A stretch of 64,000 nt of DNA from Bacteroidetes bacterium RIFCSPLOWO2_12_FULL_35_15 (GTDB taxonomy: Bacteria; Bacteroidota; Bacteroidia; 2-12-FULL-35-15): positions 62,001 through 126,000 of the forward strand of contig MEPB01000070.1 of assembly GCA_001769385.1 (NCBI GenBank), written 5' to 3'. This document shows, one piece after another, positions 6,247-60,452 of the stretch (position 1 is its first letter; every line of letters begins with the position of its first letter). The position numbers and the translations under genes are program-made. The notes under the pieces are model-generated. The model was not told where the DNA came from and ran no database searches. It saw only the letters and a list, made by a program, of their open reading frames with translations.

Positions 6247-7776
<1,530 letters not shown>

Positions 7777-7782
7777 TTAAAT

Positions 7783-8154
7783 ATGGGAAAAACAGTACTC
7801 ATTGTGGACGACTCGTTATACATGCGAACACAAATAAATGAAGCGCTAATAAAAGCAGGCTTCGAAATTATTGGGCAGGCTGCAAATGGCGAGCAAGCTA
7901 TAGAAATGGCACTAGAACTCAAGCCGGATCTTATTACGTTGGATAATATTCTGCCGGATATGATCGGAATTGATATTCTTAAAATCTTAAAACAGGAAGA
8001 GAAAATTGATTCAAAAGTAATTATGATTAGTGCCGTTGGTCAAGAGGCTGTGATAAAAGAAGGGATGGAACTTGGGGCATCTGATTACATTGTAAAACCA
8101 TTTACTCCTGAAGGCTTGGTAGTTGTGGTTAATAAGATAATGTTGGCGCCATAA
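7783..8154 (+). CDS. cheY: CheY-like response regulator
   Basis: This is a 123-residue receiver domain with D9-D10, phospho-acceptor Asp54 in TLDNILPDMIG and Lys in VKPF. It is not like the first CheY (986) but closely matches the CheY at 13,066: both share SLYMRT/SMYMRT, the LDNILPDMIG loop and ISAVGQE. The two therefore come from one duplication and probably have equivalent output roles in the two modules. It starts six bases after cheB and is the last gene before a long terminator hairpin. Confidence 0.93.
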   Translation: MGKTVLIVDDSLYMRTQINEALIKAGFEIIGQAANGEQAIEMALELKPDLITLDNILPDMIGIDILKILKQEEKIDSKVIMISAVGQEAVIKEGMELGASDYIVKPFTPEGLVVVVNKIMLAP

Positions 8155-8165
8155 AAAATATGGCT

Positions 8166-8220
8166 ATATAAAAACTGGTGTTACCCGAAATTAGTTTTCA
8201 GCTAACACAAGTTTTTATAT
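8166..8220 (+). terminator. Hairpin terminator after the first che operon
   Basis: An 18-base arm at 8166-8183 pairs with 8203-8220 with one mismatch, enclosing a 19-base loop. The 3' arm includes a run of five T. It sits just behind the second cheY and separates the main che operon from the CheC gene. Confidence 0.7.
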
Positions 8221-8290
8221 TTCATATTTGAAAGTGATACAAAAGAGAATGGAATTAAGAATCATCTATTAATAATTAAAAAATAGTTTT

Positions 8291-8920
8291 ATGAGCAGCT
8301 TAACAGAAATGGAAATGAGTACGATTAAAGATGTTTTAAATATTGGCTTTTCGAAAGCTGCTGAAACTTTATCTTTTTTTATGGCTGAAAAAATAAGTAT
8401 TGAAGCATTTGATTTTAAAATAGAAGAGATCGATTTTTATAAAAATAATTTTCGGTTTAAAGCGGACTCAAAGTATATATTAACAACTAAAATAATAGGA
8501 GAAATAAATGGTTCATGTTACCTGGTTTTCTCAAAAGCGGATACAGCAAAACTGTTTGAATTAGGTCTTCCCAAAAATTTAATTGAAGAAAGCGAAGATT
8601 ATAAAGAGATGTCAAAAGGCTTGTTACTGGAACTGGATAATATCGTTAGTGCTTCTGTTATTACTCAATTTGCAAACCTCTTAAAATGCAAAATGCATGG
8701 CGGAGTACCATCCATATGGGAAATGAAAGATAATTCAAACGCAGAGAAAGAGTTATTTGCCAATAATCTGGACGATTCCTATATTTTGAATTTTAAATCA
8801 AAATTTATTTCATCTTCAACAGCGGAAAATTTTTCACCGGAATTTATTTGGGTTTTAACACCAACATTTGTTGAAAAGGTGAAAGAAACGATCATTAGAA
8901 ATAGCAAAACAACAAACTAA
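8291..8920 (+). CDS. cheC: CheC-type CheY-phosphate phosphatase
   Basis: The 209-residue product resembles CheC/CheX proteins. The N-terminal helix reads TIKDVLNIGFSKAAETLS, equivalent to the CheC EIGNIGxGxAA motif but with Asp for the usual Glu. A second helix has ELDNIVSASVITQFANLL, keeping the E-x-x-N catalytic pattern. These phosphatases dephosphorylate CheY-P and often bind CheD. It follows the terminator after the che operon, so it may be transcribed separately. A paralogue lies at 16,244 with the same SASVITQF / TASVITQF segment. Confidence 0.82.
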   Translation: MSSLTEMEMSTIKDVLNIGFSKAAETLSFFMAEKISIEAFDFKIEEIDFYKNNFRFKADSKYILTTKIIGEINGSCYLVFSKADTAKLFELGLPKNLIEESEDYKEMSKGLLLELDNIVSASVITQFANLLKCKMHGGVPSIWEMKDNSNAEKELFANNLDDSYILNFKSKFISSSTAENFSPEFIWVLTPTFVEKVKETIIRNSKTTN

Positions 8921-8935
8921 AGAGTATTATATTTA

Positions 8936-9199
8936 ATGATTGCAGAAGTTAAAATATTGTTTTTTATTTTTCTAGCTTATATAATTGTGCTTATTCTAAT
9001 TAGATTGGTTCTTATAAAAAACGGTTTTTCATTTTCTGTATGCCCTTCATGCAAAAAAAAAATTACAAGAACAAAAAGAAATAAACTGTTGAGATTAACA
9101 GGAAGACTTACCTTAGGTGTTCTCTCCTTTAGGATAGTTAAATGTACCGAATGCAACTATAATGGTTTTTTTTTACGGAAATTTCGCCTGAAACATTAA
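8936..9199 (+). CDS. Small membrane protein with a zinc-ribbon
   Basis: The 87-residue protein starts with one hydrophobic helix (about 5-28) and continues into a basic domain with two Cys pairs, CPSC at about 38-41 and CTEC at about 72-75, which would form a zinc ribbon facing the cytoplasm. I do not recognise a named family. It starts 15 bases after the CheC gene, so the two are probably co-transcribed. Confidence 0.6.
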   Translation: MIAEVKILFFIFLAYIIVLILIRLVLIKNGFSFSVCPSCKKKITRTKRNKLLRLTGRLTLGVLSFRIVKCTECNYNGFFLRKFRLKH

Positions 9200-9507
9200 T
9201 AAATTAGCCTCCAGCACTGCTTTGTAGTTCTTGATTATTTTAAAAAGATGTAAAAAAAGCAGTCGAAAAAAGCAAGCTATTCTACTTTAAAAATGAGTTA
9301 TTAGATGCATGTTGAATATTAGTATGCTAACCTTAACGTCAAGTTTTTCATTTATTAGTTGAATTATCCTACGTATTTTATCGTACCCTAATTTATCAAA
9401 ACATGATATTCGTCATGTTTTTTACTTATTCGAAATGAGGTGTTAAAACGTATTGCCTTCCTCCCAATACATTCATTGCTTTGTATCATAAATTAAATCT
9501 ATAAAAA
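9200..9507. other. Intergenic stretch between the two che modules
   Basis: These 308 bases carry no convincing ORF. The clearest element is a 9-bp perfect inverted repeat at 9398-9406 and 9413-9421 (AAAACATGA / TCATGTTTT, 6-base loop) followed by T residues. It could be a weak terminator for the preceding gene or an operator for parA. No clean promoter match was found. Confidence 0.5.
9398..9421 (+). terminator. AT-rich hairpin upstream of parA
   Basis: A perfect 9-bp stem with a 6-base loop is followed by T bases. The stem contains only two G/C pairs, so it may equally be an operator dyad about 85 bases before the parA start. Confidence 0.35.
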
Positions 9508-10251
9508 ATGATTATTGCAATTTGCAATCATAAAGGAGGAACCGGTAAAACAACTACCACCATCAATTTGGGAAGGGCCTTGGCTTTGCGCAAAAAATCA
9601 GTGCTGTTGATTGATTTAGATTCTCAGGCAAACCTTAGCTATTCATTAGGAATAATTCCTAGTGAAAAAAATATAGGAGAAGTGTTATTTAAAAAACTTC
9701 CTTTGGATCAAGCTATCGTCAACAGAGAAGGAATGGATATTATTCCTGCAAACACAGATCTCCATGAATACGAAGAGTCGATCATAAAAAATAATTATGG
9801 TTACCTGCTTTTAAAAGATGCTATAGGAAATTTAAATTATGATTTTATTTTAATTGATTGTCCTCCTTCGCAATCAACCTTAAACATAAGCGCTTTTTGC
9901 GCTGCCGATAAAGTTTTGGTGCCAATGCTAATGGATGTATTAAGTCTTCAAGGCCTTAATCAGATATTAAAAACTATAAAAGAAGTAAAGGAAAACCTGA
10001 ATTCGAAATTAGAAATTTTAGGTGTGCTGGGTGTTTTGGTTGACGAGCGCAGGCAACTTACCCGAGAAATATTAGAACATATACAAAAAAATTATCCGGT
10101 TACAGTTTTTAATAATTATATCCATGCAAATGTAAAAGCCGCAGAGGCTCCATCGCACGGTGTATCCTTGTTAGAATATGCTCCTGCTTCACGGGGAGCA
10201 ACAGACTATATCGCTTTAGCAAACGAATTGCTTAAAATTTATAAAAACTGA
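9508..10251 (+). CDS. parA: ParA/MinD-family positioning ATPase
   Basis: The 247-residue product begins with the deviant Walker A motif KGGTGKTTT, then [16 protein letters not shown] and the Walker B region FILIDCPPS, which define the ParA/Soj family. No ParB gene or replication origin follows. Instead a soluble chemoreceptor gene starts 47 bases downstream, as for the ParA-like PpfA of Rhodobacter sphaeroides and ParC of Vibrio, which position chemosensory arrays. It most likely partitions the cytoplasmic array built by the next genes between daughter cells. Chromosome or plasmid partitioning is the less likely alternative. Confidence 0.9.
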
Positions 10252-10297
10252 AAACATAATATCAGGAATTAATACTAACCAATTTAAAAATAAAAAC

Positions 10298-12295
10298 ATG
10301 GCTTTAGGGAAAAATATGGGTGGCCCGGAAATGGGGCAAACACAAAATAATAATCAGTCAACTAATACTAATCAATCAGAAGAAATGATGGAACAAAAAA
10401 CAAATGGAGCCGATGTTCATAAACTAAATTCAGATGAAATAGCCACATTAAAACAAAGAATAGAAGAGCTGGAAACAGAAAAAGATCAGATTCAACGGGA
10501 AGTTGAAGCAAGGATGCTTTCAGTTGACCAGGCATGTATTGTTTCCGAAACCGATACCAGAGGATACATCACCTATGTGAACGATAAACATTGCGAAGTA
10601 TCTCAATACACACGTGAAGAATTGGTTGGCGCCAATCAAAATATTGTTCGTCATCCTGATATGAAGAAAGAAGTTTTCAAGGAAATGTGGGCAACTATCG
10701 GGCGTGGAAAGATTTTCCGTGGACTGGTAAAAAACAGAAGAAAAGATGGTACTCCTTATTATGTGGATGGCATATTTACTCCTGTAATCGGATCGAACGG
10801 TAAGCCAATTAAATATATCGGGATTCGTTTTGATATTACTGATACTGTACTTGAGCAACAGCGTATGAAAGGAATCGTGGATGCAATTGACACCTCCTAT
10901 GCATTCATTGAATTTGACACGAAAGGAAACGTGGTTGTAGCAAACGAAAATCTCCTAAAATTAATGGAATATTCTATGGATGATATTAAAGGAAGACATC
11001 ATAGAATGTTTGTAGATAAATCATATGCAAGCTCTAACGACTACACAAGGTTTTGGGAAGAATTGGCGTCAGGTAAAGAGCAAATTGATCAATACAAACG
11101 TATTACACGATCTGGAAAAGAAGTATGGTTACAAGCTGTTTACTCTCCTGTAAAAGATGAAATGGGAAGGATCATAAAAGTAGTGAAAGTTGCAACAGAT
11201 ATTTCCAGCCAAAAAAACGTGTTGTTTGATGTGCAGAAAATTGTTGAAATAGCTGGGAAAGAAGGCAATTTGAATGAACGAATTCCTACAAAAAATGTAG
11301 ATAGCAAATTGATAGAATTAGTGGAAGGGGTTAATAATTTAATGGATATTTTATCGAAACCAATTGGCGTTGTGCAAGAATTAGCGCATATGGTTGCTTC
11401 CTCCGCTGAAGAAATGATGGCGAAAGGAGACCAAATGCAGCGCAACACGCAAGAGATGGCATCCGCTATTCAGCAAATGGCAGAAGGTGCGCAACAGCAA
11501 GCTCAACAAACAGATGAAGTTTCTAAATTAGTGGATGGCGTATTAAAAGCTGCAGGAGAAATGTCTGCGAAATCAGAAATAATAAATAAAGCAGCGGAAC
11601 GCGGACAAGAAAGTAGCAACAGTGGATTGATCACTATTAAAAAAGTGGTAGAAAATATGAATGAGATTCAAGAATCTGCTAAATCCACTTCCGATTCAAT
11701 TGTGGTACTTACCCAACGTGCAGAAGATATCGCAAATACTTTAAATGTAATTACTGACATCGCTTCTCAAACAAATCTATTGGCTTTAAATGCTGCTATA
11801 GAGGCAGCTAGGGCAGGTGATGCAGGAAGGGGGTTCGCAGTAGTTGCTGAAGAAATAAGAAAGTTGGCAGAAGACTCCCGCAAATCGGCAATAGATATTG
11901 CAAAAGTAATTCGCGAAGTGCAAAAAGATGTGACTTCGGCCAGCAAGGCAATAGACAGTATGGATCATAGTGTAAAGAGCGGGAACAGTGCCTCAAAAGA
12001 AGCTGAATCAGTATTTGAGAGTATATCAATTTCCAGCAATGAGACATTAATTTTATCAAAAGAAATACTTGCGGCAACAGGTTTACAAAAAGAAGCGATG
12101 ACCAACACTGTGAAGAGTATCGAAAAAATTGTAGTAGTCTCCGAAGAAACGGCTGCAGGGACAGAGCAAATAGCAACCTCTTCAAAAGAACTAAGTGGAG
12201 GCATGACAGAAGTAGGTGCAACAAGTAAAGACCTTGCAGATGTTGCTAATCAATTGTTAGAAAGCGTTGCTAAATTCAAAATTGATAAAAAATAA
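10298..12295 (+). CDS. Soluble PAS-PAS chemoreceptor (MCP)
   Basis: The 665-residue protein has no membrane segment. An N-terminal Asn/Gln-rich region (about 1-35) and short coiled coil precede two Aer-type PAS domains (about 75-190 and 195-310), a short linker, and the methyl-accepting signalling hairpin, whose tip reads [20 protein letters not shown] followed by [18 protein letters not shown]. The PAS pair could bind FAD or haem and sense redox state or oxygen. Being soluble and next to parA, it should form a cytoplasmic array. The disordered N-terminus is a possible docking site for ParA, as in TlpT of R. sphaeroides (inference). No CheR-tethering pentapeptide is seen at the C-terminus. 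Confidence 0.95.
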
Positions 12296-12320
12296 TTAAC
12301 CTCCCTTAACCTATTATAAT

Positions 12321-12869
12321 ATGGAAAATAAAGATACTGCCACGCTGGAAGAAGTTAAAAAAGAGGCCGCTGCTTACACAAAAAAAAATGATGTAGGCGA
12401 ACGTATGCAACTAATTATTTTTAAACTTGGCAAAGAGGAATATGCAATGAATATTGACCAGATAAAAGAAGTGGTCATTACTCCACGAATTGCAAAAGTG
12501 CCTCAAACAGCCATGTATATAAAAGGAGTAGCAAACATACGTGGAAATATTATTGCCATAATGGATCTCGAGGAACGTTTTAATTTGATTGAAAAAACAG
12601 ATCAACCTAACTCCGAAACAATTGCTAATTACACCCTGGTTGTAGAAAGCGAAGAGTTTAAAGTTGGCATTTTAGTAAAAGAGGTTCCTAATACATTAAG
12701 TGTTAACACAACTGATATAGATAGCTCTTCAGAAATAATACGTTACACGGCTTTAGATGAGAGGTGTATTAAAGGAATTGTAAAATCAGGTGAACGGATG
12801 ATAATTATGATCGATATGTTTGAATTGTTGGCGATTGACGAACATGTTAAAAAAGTGAATACTATATAA
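12321..12869 (+). CDS. cheW: CheW coupling protein of the cytoplasmic array
   Basis: The 182-residue CheW domain (YAMNIDQIKEVVITPRIAKV, then YIKGVANIRGNIIAIMDL) is preceded by about 25 charged residues. It starts 25 bases after the soluble receptor, so it is its natural partner, connecting it to the CheA at 14,479. It is clearly divergent from the CheW at 3,414, consistent with two separate arrays. Confidence 0.94.
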   Translation: MENKDTATLEEVKKEAAAYTKKNDVGERMQLIIFKLGKEEYAMNIDQIKEVVITPRIAKVPQTAMYIKGVANIRGNIIAIMDLEERFNLIEKTDQPNSETIANYTLVVESEEFKVGILVKEVPNTLSVNTTDIDSSSEIIRYTALDERCIKGIVKSGERMIIMIDMFELLAIDEHVKKVNTI

Positions 12870-12954
12870 AATAAGACCCAATTCAATTTGGAAATGTCAA
12901 CTCGAAAATAAAAATAAAAAAGTGCTTTTTTCTTGTTGAAATAAATGGATCAAC

Positions 12955-13035
12955 GCGTTAGGGATAGTAGCGAAAATCCTTTTGAGAGGAACGAACAAAA
13001 GATTGAAGCGTATAGCCCGGCCCGCAAGGAAACGC
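12955..13035 (+). ncRNA. Candidate structured RNA/dispersed element before cheY
   Basis: A GC-richer segment stands out from the AT-rich surroundings and folds into three nested stems: outer GCGTT 12955-12959 with AACGC 13031-13035; middle GGGATA 12961-12966 with TATAGCCC 13011-13018 (AG bulge); inner AATCCTTTTG 12975-12984 with CAAAAGATT 12996-13004 (one bulged C). The internal loops are purine-rich. It ends about 30 bases before the cheY start. It resembles recurrent structured intergenic elements of Bacteroidota; a match to a known Rfam family such as Flavo-1 is possible but unverified. Confidence 0.45.
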
Positions 13036-13065
13036 CCCAATATTAATCAACAAAACAAAATAAAC

Positions 13066-13428
13066 ATGAAAAAAGTACTAATAGTTGATGATTCAATGTA
13101 TATGCGCACACTGATAAGTGATGCGTTAACTAAAGCAGGGTATGAAATTGTAGCACAGGCAGCCAATGGAGAGGCGGCTATTGATATGGCTCTGGAGCAC
13201 AAGCCTGATTTAATTACACTGGATAATATTTTGCCTGATATGATTGGCACAGATATTTTAAGAGTTTTAAAACAAGATGAAAAACTTGTTTCAAAAATCG
13301 TAATGATCAGTGCTGTTGGGCAAGAATCTGTTATTCAGGAAGGAATGGAATTGGGTGCAGCAAATTATATCGTAAAACCGTTTACCGCTGAAAGTTTGGT
13401 TGCAACTATCAATAAAGTTTTTGAATAA
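13066..13428 (+). CDS. cheY: CheY-like response regulator of module B
   Basis: The receiver domain of 120 residues has phospho-acceptor Asp53 in TLDNILPDMIG and Lys in VKPF. I start it at ATG 13066; an upstream in-frame start at 12982 would add a basic peptide encoded by the structured element and not found in its paralogue at 7,783. The stop overlaps the cheB start by one base (TAATG). It is likely the output regulator of the ParA-associated array. Confidence 0.94.
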   Translation: MKKVLIVDDSMYMRTLISDALTKAGYEIVAQAANGEAAIDMALEHKPDLITLDNILPDMIGTDILRVLKQDEKLVSKIVMISAVGQESVIQEGMELGAANYIVKPFTAESLVATINKVFE

Positions 13429-14468
13429 TGAAAATGCCAATAAAAATTTTATTGGCTGATGATTCAGGTTTAATGCGATTGTTGGTAAGTGACATTTTAA
13501 AATCTGATAAGGATATTGAAGTTATTGCAACAGCATCAAACGGAAAAGATGCAGTCGAAAAAACTATGCTTCATAATCCCGATGTGGTTGTAATGGACAT
13601 GAACATGGGCGAATATGATGGTTTGTATGGTATTGAAAAAATCATGAAAAATCACCCCACACCAATTGTTATTTTGAGTGCAGTAGGTAATACAGATTTT
13701 CCAATAATTGAAAAGGGATTAAAATTAGGAGCTGTTGATTATGTGAATAAACCCGCACAAAACAATACAAAAGTAAAAGAAGTAGAACAAGAATTAATTC
13801 AAAAAATAAAAGCGGCTGCTACGGCAAATATAGAAGCCGGAAAAGTAATAAACGAAATAAAAATAAATAGCTACACCCATACTTTTATAAATTTAAATTA
13901 TGATGTGGTAGTAATTGGTTCATCGACTGGTGGACCTGGTGCTGTGGAAAGTTTAATAAAAAATTTACCTGATAATATGGCTGTCCCGGTTTTAATTGCA
14001 CAACATATGCCGTCTAATTTTGTTCCCTCATTTGCAGCGAGATTAAACGAATTAAGTTCATTAAATATTAGTATGGCTCGCAGAGGAGACCTGCTAAAAC
14101 CCGGCAGTATATTTATTGCTCCCGGGAGCAGAAATATGGTAGTTAAAAGAAATGAAACGGGTGAAGTAGAAATTGATTTCATTTCAAAAACATTTAAAGA
14201 ATTTAACTATCCATCAGTTGATTGTTTAATGATTTCAGTCGCAGAAGCATATGGTAATAGAGCTATTGGCGTTATTTTAACAGGAATGGGCAAAGATGGT
14301 GCACAAGGTATGAAAGCAATAAAAGAAAAAGGTGGATATACCATCGCTCAAAATAAAGAAACCTGTATTGTTTATGGAATGCCAAAAGAAGTCGTTGATA
14401 ATGGAAATGCGCTTGCCATTGTTCCTATTAATGAAATAGGCGGATTCATTGTTAGTTGTTTGTCATAA
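13428..14468 (+). CDS. cheB: CheB methylesterase response regulator of module B
   Basis: The 346-residue protein has a receiver domain (D11-D12, Asp57 in MDMNMGEYDG, where Gly replaces the usual Pro) and a methylesterase domain with Ser in GSSTGGPGA, His in AQHMPSN and Asp in LTGMGKDGA. It should demethylate the soluble receptor. It overlaps cheY by one base. The sequence differs strongly from the CheB at 6,703, so the two modules have their own adaptation enzymes. Confidence 0.95.
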   Translation: MKMPIKILLADDSGLMRLLVSDILKSDKDIEVIATASNGKDAVEKTMLHNPDVVVMDMNMGEYDGLYGIEKIMKNHPTPIVILSAVGNTDFPIIEKGLKLGAVDYVNKPAQNNTKVKEVEQELIQKIKAAATANIEAGKVINEIKINSYTHTFINLNYDVVVIGSSTGGPGAVESLIKNLPDNMAVPVLIAQHMPSNFVPSFAARLNELSSLNISMARRGDLLKPGSIFIAPGSRNMVVKRNETGEVEIDFISKTFKEFNYPSVDCLMISVAEAYGNRAIGVILTGMGKDGAQGMKAIKEKGGYTIAQNKETCIVYGMPKEVVDNGNALAIVPINEIGGFIVSCLS

Positions 14469-46426: not shown

Positions 46427-47437
46427 ATGAAAAAAAAATTAAAATTAATTTTCCTGTTTTTCGTCTTCGCAAATTTAACCTATGCTCAAGGTGAAAGTGG
46501 CGCAGTTAACTGGATGAGTTTTAAGGAAGCGCAGGAGAAAAATATAAAACAAGCAAAGCCATTCTTGATTGATATATACACCGATTGGTGCGGCTGGTGC
46601 AAACACATGATGAAAACCACCTATTCAAATCCAGGCTTGGCAAAATACATAAATACAAACTTTTATCCGATAAAATTTGATGCCGAAACAAAAGATACTA
46701 TCGAATATGATGGTAAAACATACAAACCTACATCCCCCCAGCCTAAAACTCCACACGAGTTGGCTCTGAAATTTTTAGGAAATAAATTATCATATCCTTC
46801 TACCATATTTGTAGGTAATAATCTGGAATTTAATTTACTAACACAAGGATATCTGGATGAGAAAAAAATTGAACCACTTTTGATCTTTATGGTGGAAAAT
46901 GTTTATAAAGCATGCCCGTATCAGGATTTTGAAACCCAATTTAATAAAGCATTTATTGATACTCTTTATATAAAAAAAGAAGTAAAAACATATTCGCTGA
47001 ATGAAGCTTTAACTCTTCAAAAAACACAACCTAAAAAATTATTGATAAATATTTATTCAGGTTTTTGTAATTCATGCAGAGTAATGAGCAGAACAACATT
47101 TACTGATACCCTGGTAGCTGATTATATTAACAACTATTTTTATCTGGTGAATTTTGATGCTGAAAGTAATGATACTGTTTTATTTAATACTGAAAAATTT
47201 TATAAACAACCCGTCAATGGTTATCCCTTGAATACCTTTGCTATGAAAATAACAAAGGGTAATTTAAGTTTTCCTTCAGTGGTTGTTTTAGATGAAAAAT
47301 TAATTACAATTGATGTTTTAAATAGTTACCAGCATCCCAAATATCTGAAACCAATATTGATGTTTTTTGCTGATGATTCGTATAAAACAAAGAAATGGGT
47401 AGATTTTTATCAGGATTACCAGAATAAGAATAAGTGA
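46427..47437 (+). CDS. Secreted protein with two thioredoxin-like (DUF255-type) domains
   Basis: The 336-residue protein has a signal peptide (cleavage near TYA-QG) followed by two similar thioredoxin-fold halves. The first has the active-site-like YTDWCGWCKHMM and the second YSGFCNSCRVMS, each followed by TT(Y/F) and KFDAE/NFDAE segments. A CxxC in both halves suggests periplasmic disulfide or thiol redox activity. The internal duplication is clear. It stands alone, with a TAnnTTTG-like element at 46385-46392 ahead of it. Confidence 0.87.
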   Translation: MKKKLKLIFLFFVFANLTYAQGESGAVNWMSFKEAQEKNIKQAKPFLIDIYTDWCGWCKHMMKTTYSNPGLAKYINTNFYPIKFDAETKDTIEYDGKTYKPTSPQPKTPHELALKFLGNKLSYPSTIFVGNNLEFNLLTQGYLDEKKIEPLLIFMVENVYKACPYQDFETQFNKAFIDTLYIKKEVKTYSLNEALTLQKTQPKKLLINIYSGFCNSCRVMSRTTFTDTLVADYINNYFYLVNFDAESNDTVLFNTEKFYKQPVNGYPLNTFAMKITKGNLSFPSVVVLDEKLITIDVLNSYQHPKYLKPILMFFADDSYKTKKWVDFYQDYQNKNK

Positions 47438-56249: not shown

Positions 56250-57374
56250 ATGGTTATTGCTAAGGAATTAAAAATAATAAAACAGCTTGAAAAGGATCTA
56301 GAGATAGAATTTGAGTTTGCAAAAGATGAATTTGATAACAATCCTAAAAATGCTTGTTTAGTGAAAAATAATCATGTAAAAGGCTTAAGTCTCACGGAGT
56401 TACAAATTAAAAAAATACCCGATGCCATTTTGTTATTAAATAATTTGGAAGTTTTACATATTCAATCAACTGGGTTAAGTGATATTTCAGGGTTAAAAAA
56501 GTTGAATAAATTAACAAATTTGGTTTTAAGTGGTAATGAAATTATTGATATTTCTTCTATTGCAGATTTAACTAAATTGAAAAGTCTTAAAGTAGATAAT
56601 AATCAGATTTCAGAAATTAATGCTTTAAAAAAATTAAGCAGTTTAAAGGTGTTGAATTTGTGGGATAACAACATTATTGATATTTCACCTCTTAAAAAAT
56701 TGATTAATCTAGAAAATCTTGTTCTCTGGGACAATCCTATAAAAAACATTGAACCTTTAGGCGAATTAATTAATTTAACTCATCTTGATTTATATGGCGG
56801 GGATTTTCAAAATATTTCTCCTTTAAAAGGATTATTAAATCTAAATAGTCTTGATTTAATGTCAAATAAATTAACCGACATCTCTATTTTAAGGGGATTA
56901 AAAAATTTGGAAAGTCTTTTTTTAAGTTTCAATCAATTAGCAGACATTTCTTCTTTAAATGGATTAATTAATTTAAAAAGATTGGCTTTAGGGTCTAATC
57001 AAATTAGTAATATTTCTGTTTTAAGTGAACTGAAATTCCTTAAAGATCTTGATTTAAGCCACAATCAATTGGTTGAGATTAAAGATTTAAACAGCCTGAA
57101 GGCTTTAAAGTCGCTTGATTTAAGCCAAAATAGGCTTGCCGACATTTCTCCCTTAAGTGAATTAAATTTATCTAATCTTAAACTGACAAATAATGAAATT
57201 TGTGAATTTCCGAAATGGCTTCTAAACACAAGTATGGAAATATTTTCTATAGAAGAAAACTACTCTCGGGAAGGCATTAATATTTATAACAATCCAATAA
57301 AAGATGTTCCAATTGAATTAATAAAGCTCGGGAAGGAAGCTATTGGAGATTATTTTAATTCATTAATTAATTAA
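56250..57374 (+). CDS. Leucine-rich-repeat N-terminal half of a split Roco protein
   Basis: The 374-residue ORF has a short N-terminal helix-rich region, then about eleven 22-residue leucine-rich repeats of the SDS22/internalin type (L..L..L.L..N.I.DIS.L), and ends with the linker typical of Roco proteins, ELIKLGKEAIGDYFNSLIN. In intact family members this runs straight into a Roc GTPase. Here the frame stops at TAA 57372-57374 inside a tetranucleotide repeat. Deleting one 4-base unit would continue it as ...SLINGSQPINEIKVILLGEG, which is the expected junction. The LRR part should sense a ligand or partner. Confidence 0.9.
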   Translation: MVIAKELKIIKQLEKDLEIEFEFAKDEFDNNPKNACLVKNNHVKGLSLTELQIKKIPDAILLLNNLEVLHIQSTGLSDISGLKKLNKLTNLVLSGNEIIDISSIADLTKLKSLKVDNNQISEINALKKLSSLKVLNLWDNNIIDISPLKKLINLENLVLWDNPIKNIEPLGELINLTHLDLYGGDFQNISPLKGLLNLNSLDLMSNKLTDISILRGLKNLESLFLSFNQLADISSLNGLINLKRLALGSNQISNISVLSELKFLKDLDLSHNQLVEIKDLNSLKALKSLDLSQNRLADISPLSELNLSNLKLTNNEICEFPKWLLNTSMEIFSIEENYSREGINIYNNPIKDVPIELIKLGKEAIGDYFNSLIN

Positions 57375-57375
57375 T
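57362..57375 (+). repeat. ATTA tetranucleotide repeat at the Roco frameshift
   Basis: The repeat is 14 bases long (3.5 units of ATTA) and contains the stop of the LRR ORF. Loss of one unit restores a single reading frame with the Roc-COR ORF, the arrangement expected for slippage or phase variation. Confidence 0.8.
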
Positions 57376-57444
57376 GGTTCACAACCAATTAATGAGATAA
57401 AAGTAATTCTTTTAGGCGAAGGGGCAGCAGGAAAAACTTCCTTA

Positions 57445-59241
57445 ATGAACTATTTACAAGGGAAGCTTTTTGATGAAAATGAACCACAAACACACGGGAT
57501 TAATCTGGGTGAATATACAGAACAAACAGGTGTAACATTAAAAGTTTGGGATTTTGGAGGACAAGATATAATGCATCACACCCATCAGTTTTTTCTTACT
57601 CAAAAAAGTATATATGTATTGGTTTTAAATGCTCGAGAAAACAGTGATACAGAAAAATGGCTAAAGTTGATTCAAGTATTTGGTGGTGATTCCCCAATCA
57701 TAATTGTTACAAACAAAATAGATGAAAATCCTTCAGATCATGAGAATATAAAATACTTAAATACAAAGTATTCAAATCTTAATAATAGATATGTGAAAAT
57801 TTCTTGTAAAAAAAATATCGGATTAGATGAATTAAAAATAATGCTTACTGAGACAATAATAAATTTACTTCATGTTCGAACATTATGGGGAAATAGTTGG
57901 CTCAAAGTCAAACAAGAACTTGAGCAAATGAGAAATGGCGAAAGTTTAAAAGATTATATACATTTTGATAAATACAATGAAATTTGTGAAAAACATGGTG
58001 TTGCAAAATCTCACCGTGATACTTTAATTAATTGGTTACATCAATTGGGTGTTATTACTTATTTTTCAGATACAAACTTAAACGAAACTAATGTTATAAA
58101 CCCCTCATGGATTACGGAGGCATTTTATGCTATAATTAATGCTGAAATAGTTGCTAAGAGTTTTGGTCGTTTCAATTTAAATCAACTTCCTTTTATATTG
58201 AATGAAGAAAAATATCCTAAACAAAAATATGGTTTTTTATTAGGCCTAATGACAAAATTTGAACTGTGTTATAAAATTGATGATGGAAATTTTCTAATAC
58301 CGGATCTATTAAATAAAGAAGAGCCTGATTTTACTTTCGATATAAAATCATCCTTAAAATTTAAGTATAAATATCCAAATCTATTGCCTAAAGCAATTTT
58401 ACCCAAATTCATGGTACGTAGACATAAAGAAATTAAAGATGATAAAAAATGGCGTACAGGATTATTGATTTCAGATAATTATTACGAATCAGAAGCTCTA
58501 ATTCGTGTTGATGAGGAGGATAAAGAAATATCAATTTATGTTTTAGGCCAAGAGAAGCGTGGTTATTTAGCAAGTATAATATCGAATTTTGAAGACATTA
58601 ATTCTTTCTATAACGGTTTAGAACCAGAAAAGGCAGTTCCTTGCCGCTGTAATTCATGTTCAATTAATGAAAAACCTCATTATTTTCAATACGAAGTTTT
58701 AAGAAATTCAAAAAGTAACGGACGAAGAGAATATCCATGTCCTATTTCTGATGAAGATGTCCCAATAAATGAACTTTTAGGCGTTTTAATTACTCGGGAA
58801 GAGCTTGAATCGACAATAAAAGAATTAGTTGGTAAAGGGACTTTTCAAACAAAAAGGCATTTGGAAGAAGGTGATACAGATGGCTTTATTTTAACCATAA
58901 AATCTTTATTTAGTAGTGTTTCTTATCTTCTTTTTGAAAAAAGTGAAAAATCATTTCATGCACCTTTATTTCTTCTATTACGCGCAATCTTTTCAAGTAA
59001 AACACGTGGTGATGAAATTCAGTCTAAAGGCCGCGCGGATATTATTATTGATATAGAAAAATATATTTATATTTTGGAACTTAAATTGGACGGTTCTACG
59101 AAAGATGCAATGGCACAAATCCATGAAAAAAAATATTACGAACCATATCTATTGGAAGACAAAAATATTATTTTAGTTGGCATAAATTTTAGCAGTAAAA
59201 ATCGTAATATTGATGACTACATAGTTGAGATACATAAATAA
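57445..59241 (+). CDS. Roc-COR GTPase with C-terminal PD-(D/E)XK nuclease (split Roco, C half)
   Basis: From its first ATG the ORF encodes 598 residues, but the essential P-loop GEGAAGKTS lies upstream in the same open frame (57415-57441), so this start is not the native one. Then come Roc motifs G3 DFGGQD (36-41) and G4 TNKID (89-93), a COR domain (about 155-390), a zinc-knuckle-like CRCNSC (Cys400, 402, 405) with Cys432, and a C-terminal nuclease domain of the PDDEXK_9 type: Asp532 in GRADI, then Glu545 and Lys547 in LELKLD, with AMAQIHEKKYYE and ILVGINFS. The joined protein (about 990 residues) would pair an LRR sensor, GTPase switch and nuclease. An anti-phage or conflict role is inferred. 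Confidence 0.88.
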   Translation: MNYLQGKLFDENEPQTHGINLGEYTEQTGVTLKVWDFGGQDIMHHTHQFFLTQKSIYVLVLNARENSDTEKWLKLIQVFGGDSPIIIVTNKIDENPSDHENIKYLNTKYSNLNNRYVKISCKKNIGLDELKIMLTETIINLLHVRTLWGNSWLKVKQELEQMRNGESLKDYIHFDKYNEICEKHGVAKSHRDTLINWLHQLGVITYFSDTNLNETNVINPSWITEAFYAIINAEIVAKSFGRFNLNQLPFILNEEKYPKQKYGFLLGLMTKFELCYKIDDGNFLIPDLLNKEEPDFTFDIKSSLKFKYKYPNLLPKAILPKFMVRRHKEIKDDKKWRTGLLISDNYYESEALIRVDEEDKEISIYVLGQEKRGYLASIISNFEDINSFYNGLEPEKAVPCRCNSCSINEKPHYFQYEVLRNSKSNGRREYPCPISDEDVPINELLGVLITREELESTIKELVGKGTFQTKRHLEEGDTDGFILTIKSLFSSVSYLLFEKSEKSFHAPLFLLLRAIFSSKTRGDEIQSKGRADIIIDIEKYIYILELKLDGSTKDAMAQIHEKKYYEPYLLEDKNIILVGINFSSKNRNIDDYIVEIHK

Positions 59242-59254
59242 ATATATTTTTTCT

Positions 59255-59287
59255 CCTTTGTTGGTGTTATTTCACCACAAAATTATT
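59255..59287. terminator. Hairpin between the convergent Roco and KilA-N genes
   Basis: TTTGTTGGTG-TTATTT-CACCACAAA forms a stem with one bulged T. It lies between two convergent genes and overlaps the last codon of the KilA-N gene. A near-identical copy stands at 60187-60221 on the other side of that gene. Confidence 0.6.
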
Positions 59288-60104
59288 TCAATTTTTTCAA
59301 ATCCTTATTTCCCAATAAAGATTTCATTTGTGTAATTGCAATCGTATTTAATTGTTGTAGCCGTTCACTTTGTCTTAAGCCTTGGTGTATTAGTACAGAA
59401 TTAATGCTTTCTAAATTTGATAATACAACCAATTGCTCAATGCTTGCATCATCCCGTATATTCCCTTTTGCTGTTGGGTTTTCATCACGCCATTCTTTTG
59501 CTGTTTTCCCAAATAATGCTACGTTTAGTAAGTCAGCTTCATTGGCATAAGTAAAACTGATTTTACTTTTCGAAAGCGTTGGAGGAATTAATTTTTCTTT
59601 AATTGCATCAGTATGTATGCGGTAATTTATTTTTGCTAAAGTGCGTTGTAAGTTCCATTCTAAATTTAAACGATCAGTTTCATCTTCTTTTAATCGTTGG
59701 AATTCTTTTATAAGATAAAGCTTAAATTCCGGGCTTAACCAAGAGCCAAATTCAAATGCAATATCTTTATGTGCAAAAGTACCACCACCATATCTGCCTG
59801 CTTTCGAGATTAATCCTGTTGCACCTGTTGCCTCAATCCATTTTTTTGGAGAAAGCGAAAAGCTATTTAATCCTGCTTGTGTTTTAAACCTCTCGAATTC
59901 GAGAGGTTTAAAACTTGGATTGTAAATTTGTTCCCAAATGCCTAAAAATTCAATGGTATTTCTATTTCTTATCCAATTGTAAATAATTGTTTCATCGCCA
60001 AATGATTTAATCATATCAGTCAATGAAATATAATCTGTATTATTTGCAGAGACAATTCTTATTTCAGTTCCTTTTACAGTAATCTTTTTATTTTTTGTTG
60101 TCAT
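59283..60104 (-). CDS. KilA-N domain protein
   Basis: The 273-residue protein has an N-terminal strand pair, then the KilA-N DNA-binding domain (YISLTDMIKSFGDETIIYNW, FGSWLSPEFKLYLIKEFQRL, with FAHKDIAFEFGSW) of about 150 residues, and a C-terminal domain (FTYANEADLLNVALFGKTAK...). KilA-N proteins come from phages and mobile elements and are frequent in Bacteroidota accessory DNA. It is convergent with the Roco locus and bracketed by hairpin repeats, suggesting it moved in as a unit. Codons for SFKPLEFERFKT form a 34-bp palindrome. Confidence 0.92.
   Translation of the reverse strand: MTTKNKKITVKGTEIRIVSANNTDYISLTDMIKSFGDETIIYNWIRNRNTIEFLGIWEQIYNPSFKPLEFERFKTQAGLNSFSLSPKKWIEATGATGLISKAGRYGGGTFAHKDIAFEFGSWLSPEFKLYLIKEFQRLKEDETDRLNLEWNLQRTLAKINYRIHTDAIKEKLIPPTLSKSKISFTYANEADLLNVALFGKTAKEWRDENPTAKGNIRDDASIEQLVVLSNLESINSVLIHQGLRQSERLQQLNTIAITQMKSLLGNKDLKKLK
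59881..59914. repeat. 34-bp perfect palindrome inside the KilA-N gene
   Basis: Seventeen bases on each side of the centre at 59897/59898 match exactly, with GAATTC in the middle and GTTTTAAACC/GGTTTAAAAC at the ends. The encoded segment is FKPLEFERFK in the KilA-N domain. Confidence 0.9.
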
Positions 60105-60221: not shown

Positions 60222-60377
60222 GCGAATTATTTTCATCCCCCAGCAACACACAAGCCAACACGCCCCCCCTTCGCTCTCACACCATCCTTCACGCAAGGGG
60301 GACATATTTCGCCAAATGCAATACCCTCAACCTTTAACCCAATTTACCCAATCCCAATTTGCCCGTTCACTAATTAA

Positions 60378-60452
60378 CCAATCAACTGAATCAACCAATC
60401 AACTGAATCAACCAATCAACTGAATCAACCAATCAACCAATCAACCAATTAC
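60378..60452. repeat. 17-bp and 8-bp short tandem repeats
   Basis: Three exact 17-base units CCAATCAACTGAATCAA (60378-60428) are followed by three near-exact 8-base units CCAATCAA (60429-60452). The longer unit contains the shorter. There is no spacer variety, so this is not a CRISPR array. Confidence 0.8.

Follow-up and report, generated by a model that had tools for sequence, protein, structure and literature searches.

Prokaryotic proteins composed of leucine-rich repeats (LRRs), an AP-GTPase and a COR module were proposed as a counter-invader class by Kaur et al. (2021, eLife; PMC8195603). In the text passage that deals with them, the class is characterized by fast-evolving LRRs, the AP-GTPase and COR, followed by C-terminal domains of at least 24 kinds, the effectors named there being TIR, DRHyd, caspase, trypsin, FGS, GT4 and EADs. 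A 2019 review grouped all prokaryotic Rocos as LRR-Roc-COR only (PMC6337361). The present study concerns a Roco gene with a C-terminal PDDEXK_9 domain, located in a stretch of 64,000 nucleotides (hereafter the window, whose numbering is used throughout) from Bacteroidetes bacterium RIFCSPLOWO2_12_FULL_35_15, contig MEPB01000070.1.

Comparison with described systems

Like the proteins shown in Figure 6D of Kaur et al., the window Roco displays N-terminal LRRs, followed by Roc and COR and a variable C-terminal effector, but it differs in its PDDEXK_9 tail, a domain left unnamed in their text passage. Examination of the locus and its relatives reveals an intact Roc, a COR directly after it, fast-evolving LRRs and a C-terminal effector that varies, with the LRRs on the same polypeptide as Roc in three homologues and split from it in the window allele. 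Because Kaur et al. define the LRR-AP-GTPase-COR class in that passage, the locus belongs to a known kind, and the initial annotation, which had called it an undescribed defence or conflict system, was mistaken as to kind; the PDDEXK_9 effector is new relative to the passage. A literature search of partial coverage found no paper in which a Roco and a PDDEXK domain are joined in one protein.

The Roco of Chlorobium tepidum (CtRoco; PDB 3dpu, 6hlu, 8r4b-d) is an LRR-Roc-COR homologue, and 3dpu matches residues 5-476 at 1.6e-72; the detected homology, however, ends before the nuclease domain. The AAA-ATPase_like/PDDEXK_9 (DUF1703) proteins possess the same C-terminal nuclease family, with its GRxD, ExK and Q residues, but carry an N-terminal AAA-type ATPase where the present protein has LRR-Roc-COR; in a Pfam search, neither open reading frame (ORF) of the window gene matched the AAA domain (PF09820) at E up to 1. 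The nuclease domains of the Wolbachia CidB/CinB proteins give the best match to the predicted fold of the tail (Z up to 12.0), but these proteins, unlike the Roco, have no Roc-COR. In the case of the NLR/STAND receptors the layout is alike, whereas a Roc GTPase occupies the place of the STAND NTPase. No NACHT, NB-ARC or other STAND NTPase was among the Pfam matches of the locus, and with a Ras-like Roc GTPase as its switch, the Roco is NLR-like in layout only. The protein, a bacterial cousin of the LRRK2 of Parkinson's disease, has the look of a built-in immune receptor of a previously predicted kind.

Modular architecture and the nuclease tail

The upstream portion of the gene is an LRR ORF of 374 amino acids at 56250-57374 (plus strand, as are all parts of the gene), with Pfam matches to LRR_4 (2.1e-40) and LRR_8 (3e-22) over 56250-57371; the corresponding repeats are in frame with Roc in the three homologues. 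The remainder is encoded by the frame at 57367-59241, in which Pfam (57376-59238) identifies, above the curated cut-offs, Roc (2.7e-27), COR-A (1.6e-38) and COR-B (9.6e-32), together with a Ras match of 4.8e-13 on the Roc part. The initial annotation had assigned the LRR sensor, the GTPase and the nuclease to 57394-59241, an interval that contains Roc-COR and the nuclease and leaves the LRR sensor outside. The Roc domain (57400-57858) contains the motifs G1 GEGAAGKTS, G3 DFGGQD and G4 NKID, which are conserved across the four full-length members in the alignment. COR-A and COR-B follow directly (57892-58779), and their Cys423, Cys425, Cys428 and Cys455 are invariant in all four.

The PDDEXK_9 domain (PF08011) occupies 58858-59238. 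The C-terminal pattern recognised in the initial annotation (Asp532, Glu545 and Lys547) is real and corresponds to residues 555, 568 and 570 when counted from 57376, the numbering used here for the tail; a Pfam profile search gives a match of 3e-12 (46.9 bits, above the curated cut-off of 25.5). D555 (59038), E568 (59077), K570 (59083) and Q581 (59116) are invariant in the four full-length Rocos, so that neither the acidic residues nor the Lys has been lost in any of them. Ten other PDDEXK_9 proteins, in one of which (L032) Pfam detects AAA-ATPase_like, share the GRxD, ExK and Q pattern in an alignment, save that L038 has GSTD for GRxD. A further protein of 398 residues (L055, 679-1872) carries a PDDEXK_9 domain 42% identical to the Roco type; no AAA domain was found in it, and its N-terminal part has no Pfam match.

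Five sequences were used to predict the structure of the tail (mean pLDDT 78.8, pTM 0.68). The model best matches the nuclease domains of CidB/CinB (Z 12.0-9.7 over 123-145 residues, with 10-21% identity in the fold alignment), far ahead of the rows that follow (Z 7.1), where EcoRV and HincII stand at about 7. The predicted fold thus gives good grounds for regarding the tail as restriction-endonuclease-like, and it would be a DNA-cutting enzyme domain. A model of the 621-residue Roc-COR-nuclease portion (mean pLDDT 68.7) was too weak for use.

Distribution of full-length homologues

One genome per GTDB species was scanned by a method that relies on short exact peptides and will therefore miss more distant copies. 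Three relatives of full length emerged: those of Chitinophaga barathri (L002, 971 amino acids, 64% identity to the window Roco), the MAG Bacteroidetes bacterium GWF2_29_10 (L003, 1101 amino acids, 65%) and the planctomycete Candidatus Anammoxibacter (L004, 974 amino acids, 53%). Each is one intact ORF composed of LRRs, Roc, COR and PDDEXK_9, and the PDDEXK_9 domain set is therefore present in all four full-length members. The description of the modules as lying in one protein accordingly holds for the homologues and fails for the window allele, in which the LRR and Roc frames are split. Between the window Roco and the three relatives, the LRRs are 36-45% identical, Roc-COR 55-66% and the nuclease tail 47-60%, which makes the LRRs the fastest-diverging part.

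The gene occurs in none of 35 genomes of the same genus. Further scans of 395 genomes of the phylum, 346 of the Chitinophaga family, 392 of the L004 phylum and 394 of the L003 class added no full-length member, the matches in the first two sets being the window and C. barathri only. A viral or phage origin of the Roco was considered and rejected, no full-length homologue being found in phage records or viral contigs. At the Candidatus Anammoxibacter locus (6945-14177), the Roco gene with PDDEXK_9 is separated by about 1.3 kb from a second, different Roco gene, whose tail has no Pfam match beyond COR-B.

Variable tails on a common Roc-COR core

The tails were compared among other prokaryotic Rocos met in the searches, and a tree was built from 60 Roc-COR regions by a quick method that leaves some long branches. 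These approximately 60 Rocos share an LRR-Roc-COR chassis and bear TIR, CHAT, PDDEXK_9 and other tails. TIR_2 scores above the Pfam cut-off in ten scanned tails (L011, L017, L019, L020, L042, L050, L051, L052, L086 and L114), as does CHAT in three of four; the DUF4062-like tails score below theirs. Labels for a second PDDEXK-like type (L041, L044, L101 and L103), L109, the DUF4435-like group, the transmembrane tails and the remaining TIR rows were assigned by eye.

In this tree the four PDDEXK_9 Rocos form a single clade (SH-aLRT 100) that spans Bacteroidota and Planctomycetota. All effector labels together require 19 changes on the tree, where 8 is the least possible and shuffled labels give a mean of 35.5, and for TIR alone at least 6 changes are forced by well-supported branches. 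The clearest example is a direct effector swap between L020 and L021, whose Roc-COR regions are 80% identical while their unrelated tails, TIR and DUF4062-like, are 28% identical. The occurrence of one chassis with swapped tails therefore supports an NLR-like conflict system.

Two other findings concern Rocos of this collection. The caspase-like CHAT tail is present in L100, L104, L106 and L115, of which L106 and L115 reside in one genome. On the Photobacterium toruni plasmid NZ_CP101696.1, a Roco (COR) gene (L116, 5278-8016) lies between TnsA/transposase/TniB/HTH and TniQ-Csy2-Csy3-Cas6f genes, and looks as if it were inside a type I-F CRISPR-associated transposon.

The frame break in the window allele

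As judged from the sequence and the ORF list, the LRR and Roc portions are in different frames in the source genome. The frame was analysed as assembled, with no base restored, and intact copies are known from the homologues. The break coincides with a TTAA repeat tract of three units only (57363-57378) at the linker between LRR and Roc; in CtRoco this linker serves as the activation hinge (PMC11052575). The stop of the LRR frame, TAA at 57372-57374, is inside the tract, and the three homologues have no such tract. The Roc frame is open from 57367 onward only, and its first ATG, at 57445, is downstream of the P-loop, such that a start there would yield a product without the GTP-binding loop. 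Because of the break in the tract and the position of this ATG, the copy in this genome is probably off. Apart from the break, about 995 codons can be read through and no motif has been lost, which indicates that the break is either recent or variable between cells.

Genomic surroundings

The G+C content is 27% in the LRR ORF and 29% in the Roco ORF, versus 41% in the neighbouring alpha-2-macroglobulin (A2M) gene, which is kept in 29 of 36 genomes of the genus. These values fit acquisition of the gene by transfer, although the entire window is rich in A+T (33% G+C). In nine relatives, none of the window's neighbouring genes occurs downstream of A2M, save for one homologue of the gene at 46427 (in G017). 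A clean empty site in the genus was not obtained; the contig of the closest relative ends too early to show one.

The KilA-N gene next door (59283-60104, minus strand; Pfam KilA-N 3.5e-21) is a PADLOC candidate, PDC-S22 (1.3e-135). It does adjoin the Roco, as the initial annotation had remarked, but a partnership is not supported: the two genes are convergent, the KilA-N gene has no match at the loci of the three homologues, and it is found in 10 of 98 other relatives searched, while the Roco is absent from all same-genus relatives searched. The repeats reported all around the locus turned out to be mostly LRR codons and ordinary intergenic repeats, with one short tandem repeat at 60372-60445. 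The PADLOC candidates PDC-S05 beside the Candidatus Anammoxibacter gene and PDC-M66 beside that of C. barathri are single, uncontrolled observations and not evidence of a defence island. Elsewhere in the window, 1351-33473 (plus strand) is a large sensory gene cluster, densely packed with two CheA-like kinases, an MCP, several PAS/GAF kinases and a SpoIIE-type phosphatase.

Proposed mode of action and alternative explanations

We consider it fairly probable that the gene was acquired horizontally and on its own encodes a conflict receptor, of the prokaryotic AP-GTPase/Roco type, that is directed against phages or plasmids. The logic of sensor, switch and nuclease put forward in the initial annotation is well supported, since the domains, the conserved catalytic residues, the predicted fold, the patchy spread and the swapped tails all agree with it. 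Resting CtRoco is a dimer with its LRR folded back, and GTP leads to monomerisation, a 135-degree swing of the LRR and rotation of COR-B (PMC11052575). For the present protein we infer the ligand, the direction of the switch, the DNA substrate and the immune outcome as follows. The LRR solenoid would serve as the sensor, folded back on Roc-COR at rest; once an invader molecule is bound and Roc is loaded with GTP, the LRR would swing away and COR-B rotate, and this movement would free, re-pair or re-arrange the C-terminal PDDEXK_9 domain. The freed domain would then cut DNA, either the invader's or the host's, whereby replication would be blocked or the infected cell killed.

Several points weigh against this reading. 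The literature search found no functional data on invader protection by prokaryotic AP-GTPase (Roco) proteins, the window Roco matches no PADLOC family at E up to 1, and the matches of its homologues are weak (0.019 and 0.039). The neighbourhoods of the four members, of which the initial annotation had proposed a survey, are only weakly defence-like, and no gene shared among them was seen. As for the tail, Foldseek alone gave no match at E < 0.001, its top rows being the same nucleases, and a sequence search did not find a related solved structure; part of the tail labels on the tree, as stated, were assigned by eye. Finally, the allele in this genome is frame-broken. The chances are about even that this copy is a remnant, a Roco conflict gene that was acquired, then disabled by a small change in the repeat, and now has no function: the break is in the TTAA tract, the downstream frame lacks a usual start ahead of the P-loop, and the genome contains one COR-A and one PDDEXK_9 match, both at this locus, hence no second copy. 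The otherwise open codons and intact motifs speak for a break that is recent or varies from cell to cell, and such a loss bears on the allele rather than on the role of the family. The break lies among tandem tetranucleotide units, at a linker that is flexible, and this location would also suit a phase-variable off state, in which slippage toggles a dangerous self-targeting nuclease within the population, but with three units, a single assembly and no such tract in the three homologues, we hold this to be highly improbable.

Two further alternatives concern the family as a whole. A housekeeping or developmental signalling Roco, with a nuclease-like tail that acts as a scaffold or on the cell's own DNA, is conceivable in that PD-(D/E)XK folds can be non-catalytic. 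The physiological roles of bacterial Rocos are, moreover, little known (PMC6337361). The strict conservation of the catalytic residues, the patchy occurrence across phyla and the swapped effectors nevertheless make such a role unlikely. Less credible still is a selfish nuclease linked to mobile elements and spreading for itself, like the AAA-ATPase/DUF1703 proteins. The Roco has the PDDEXK_9 domain in common with the AAA-PDDEXK_9 proteins, a group that spreads horizontally and undergoes expansion in symbionts (PMC6387759), and a related Roco is surrounded by Tn7-like and type I-F Cas genes on the Photobacterium plasmid; against this, no transposase or integrase was recognised among the listed ORFs near the four members, and the chassis fits the LRR-AP-GTPase conflict proteins.

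Implications for bacterial Roco proteins

More tentatively than the conflict receptor itself, we suggest that an LRR sensor with an LRRK2-like GTP switch gating a fused DNA nuclease may represent an uncatalogued effector class in prokaryotic Roco immunity, a proposal that we regard as somewhat doubtful at present. Little is known of the physiological function of the bacterial Rocos that serve as models for LRRK2 (PMC6337361). If the proposal is true, such a Roco would provide bacterial Roco proteins with a directly testable function: its recognisable nuclease output would offer a simple assay, the readout being DNA cleavage or phage protection dependent on GTP, on an LRR ligand and on the D, E and K residues. 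The LRRK2-type conformational switch would thereby be tied to immunity via a readable catalytic output.
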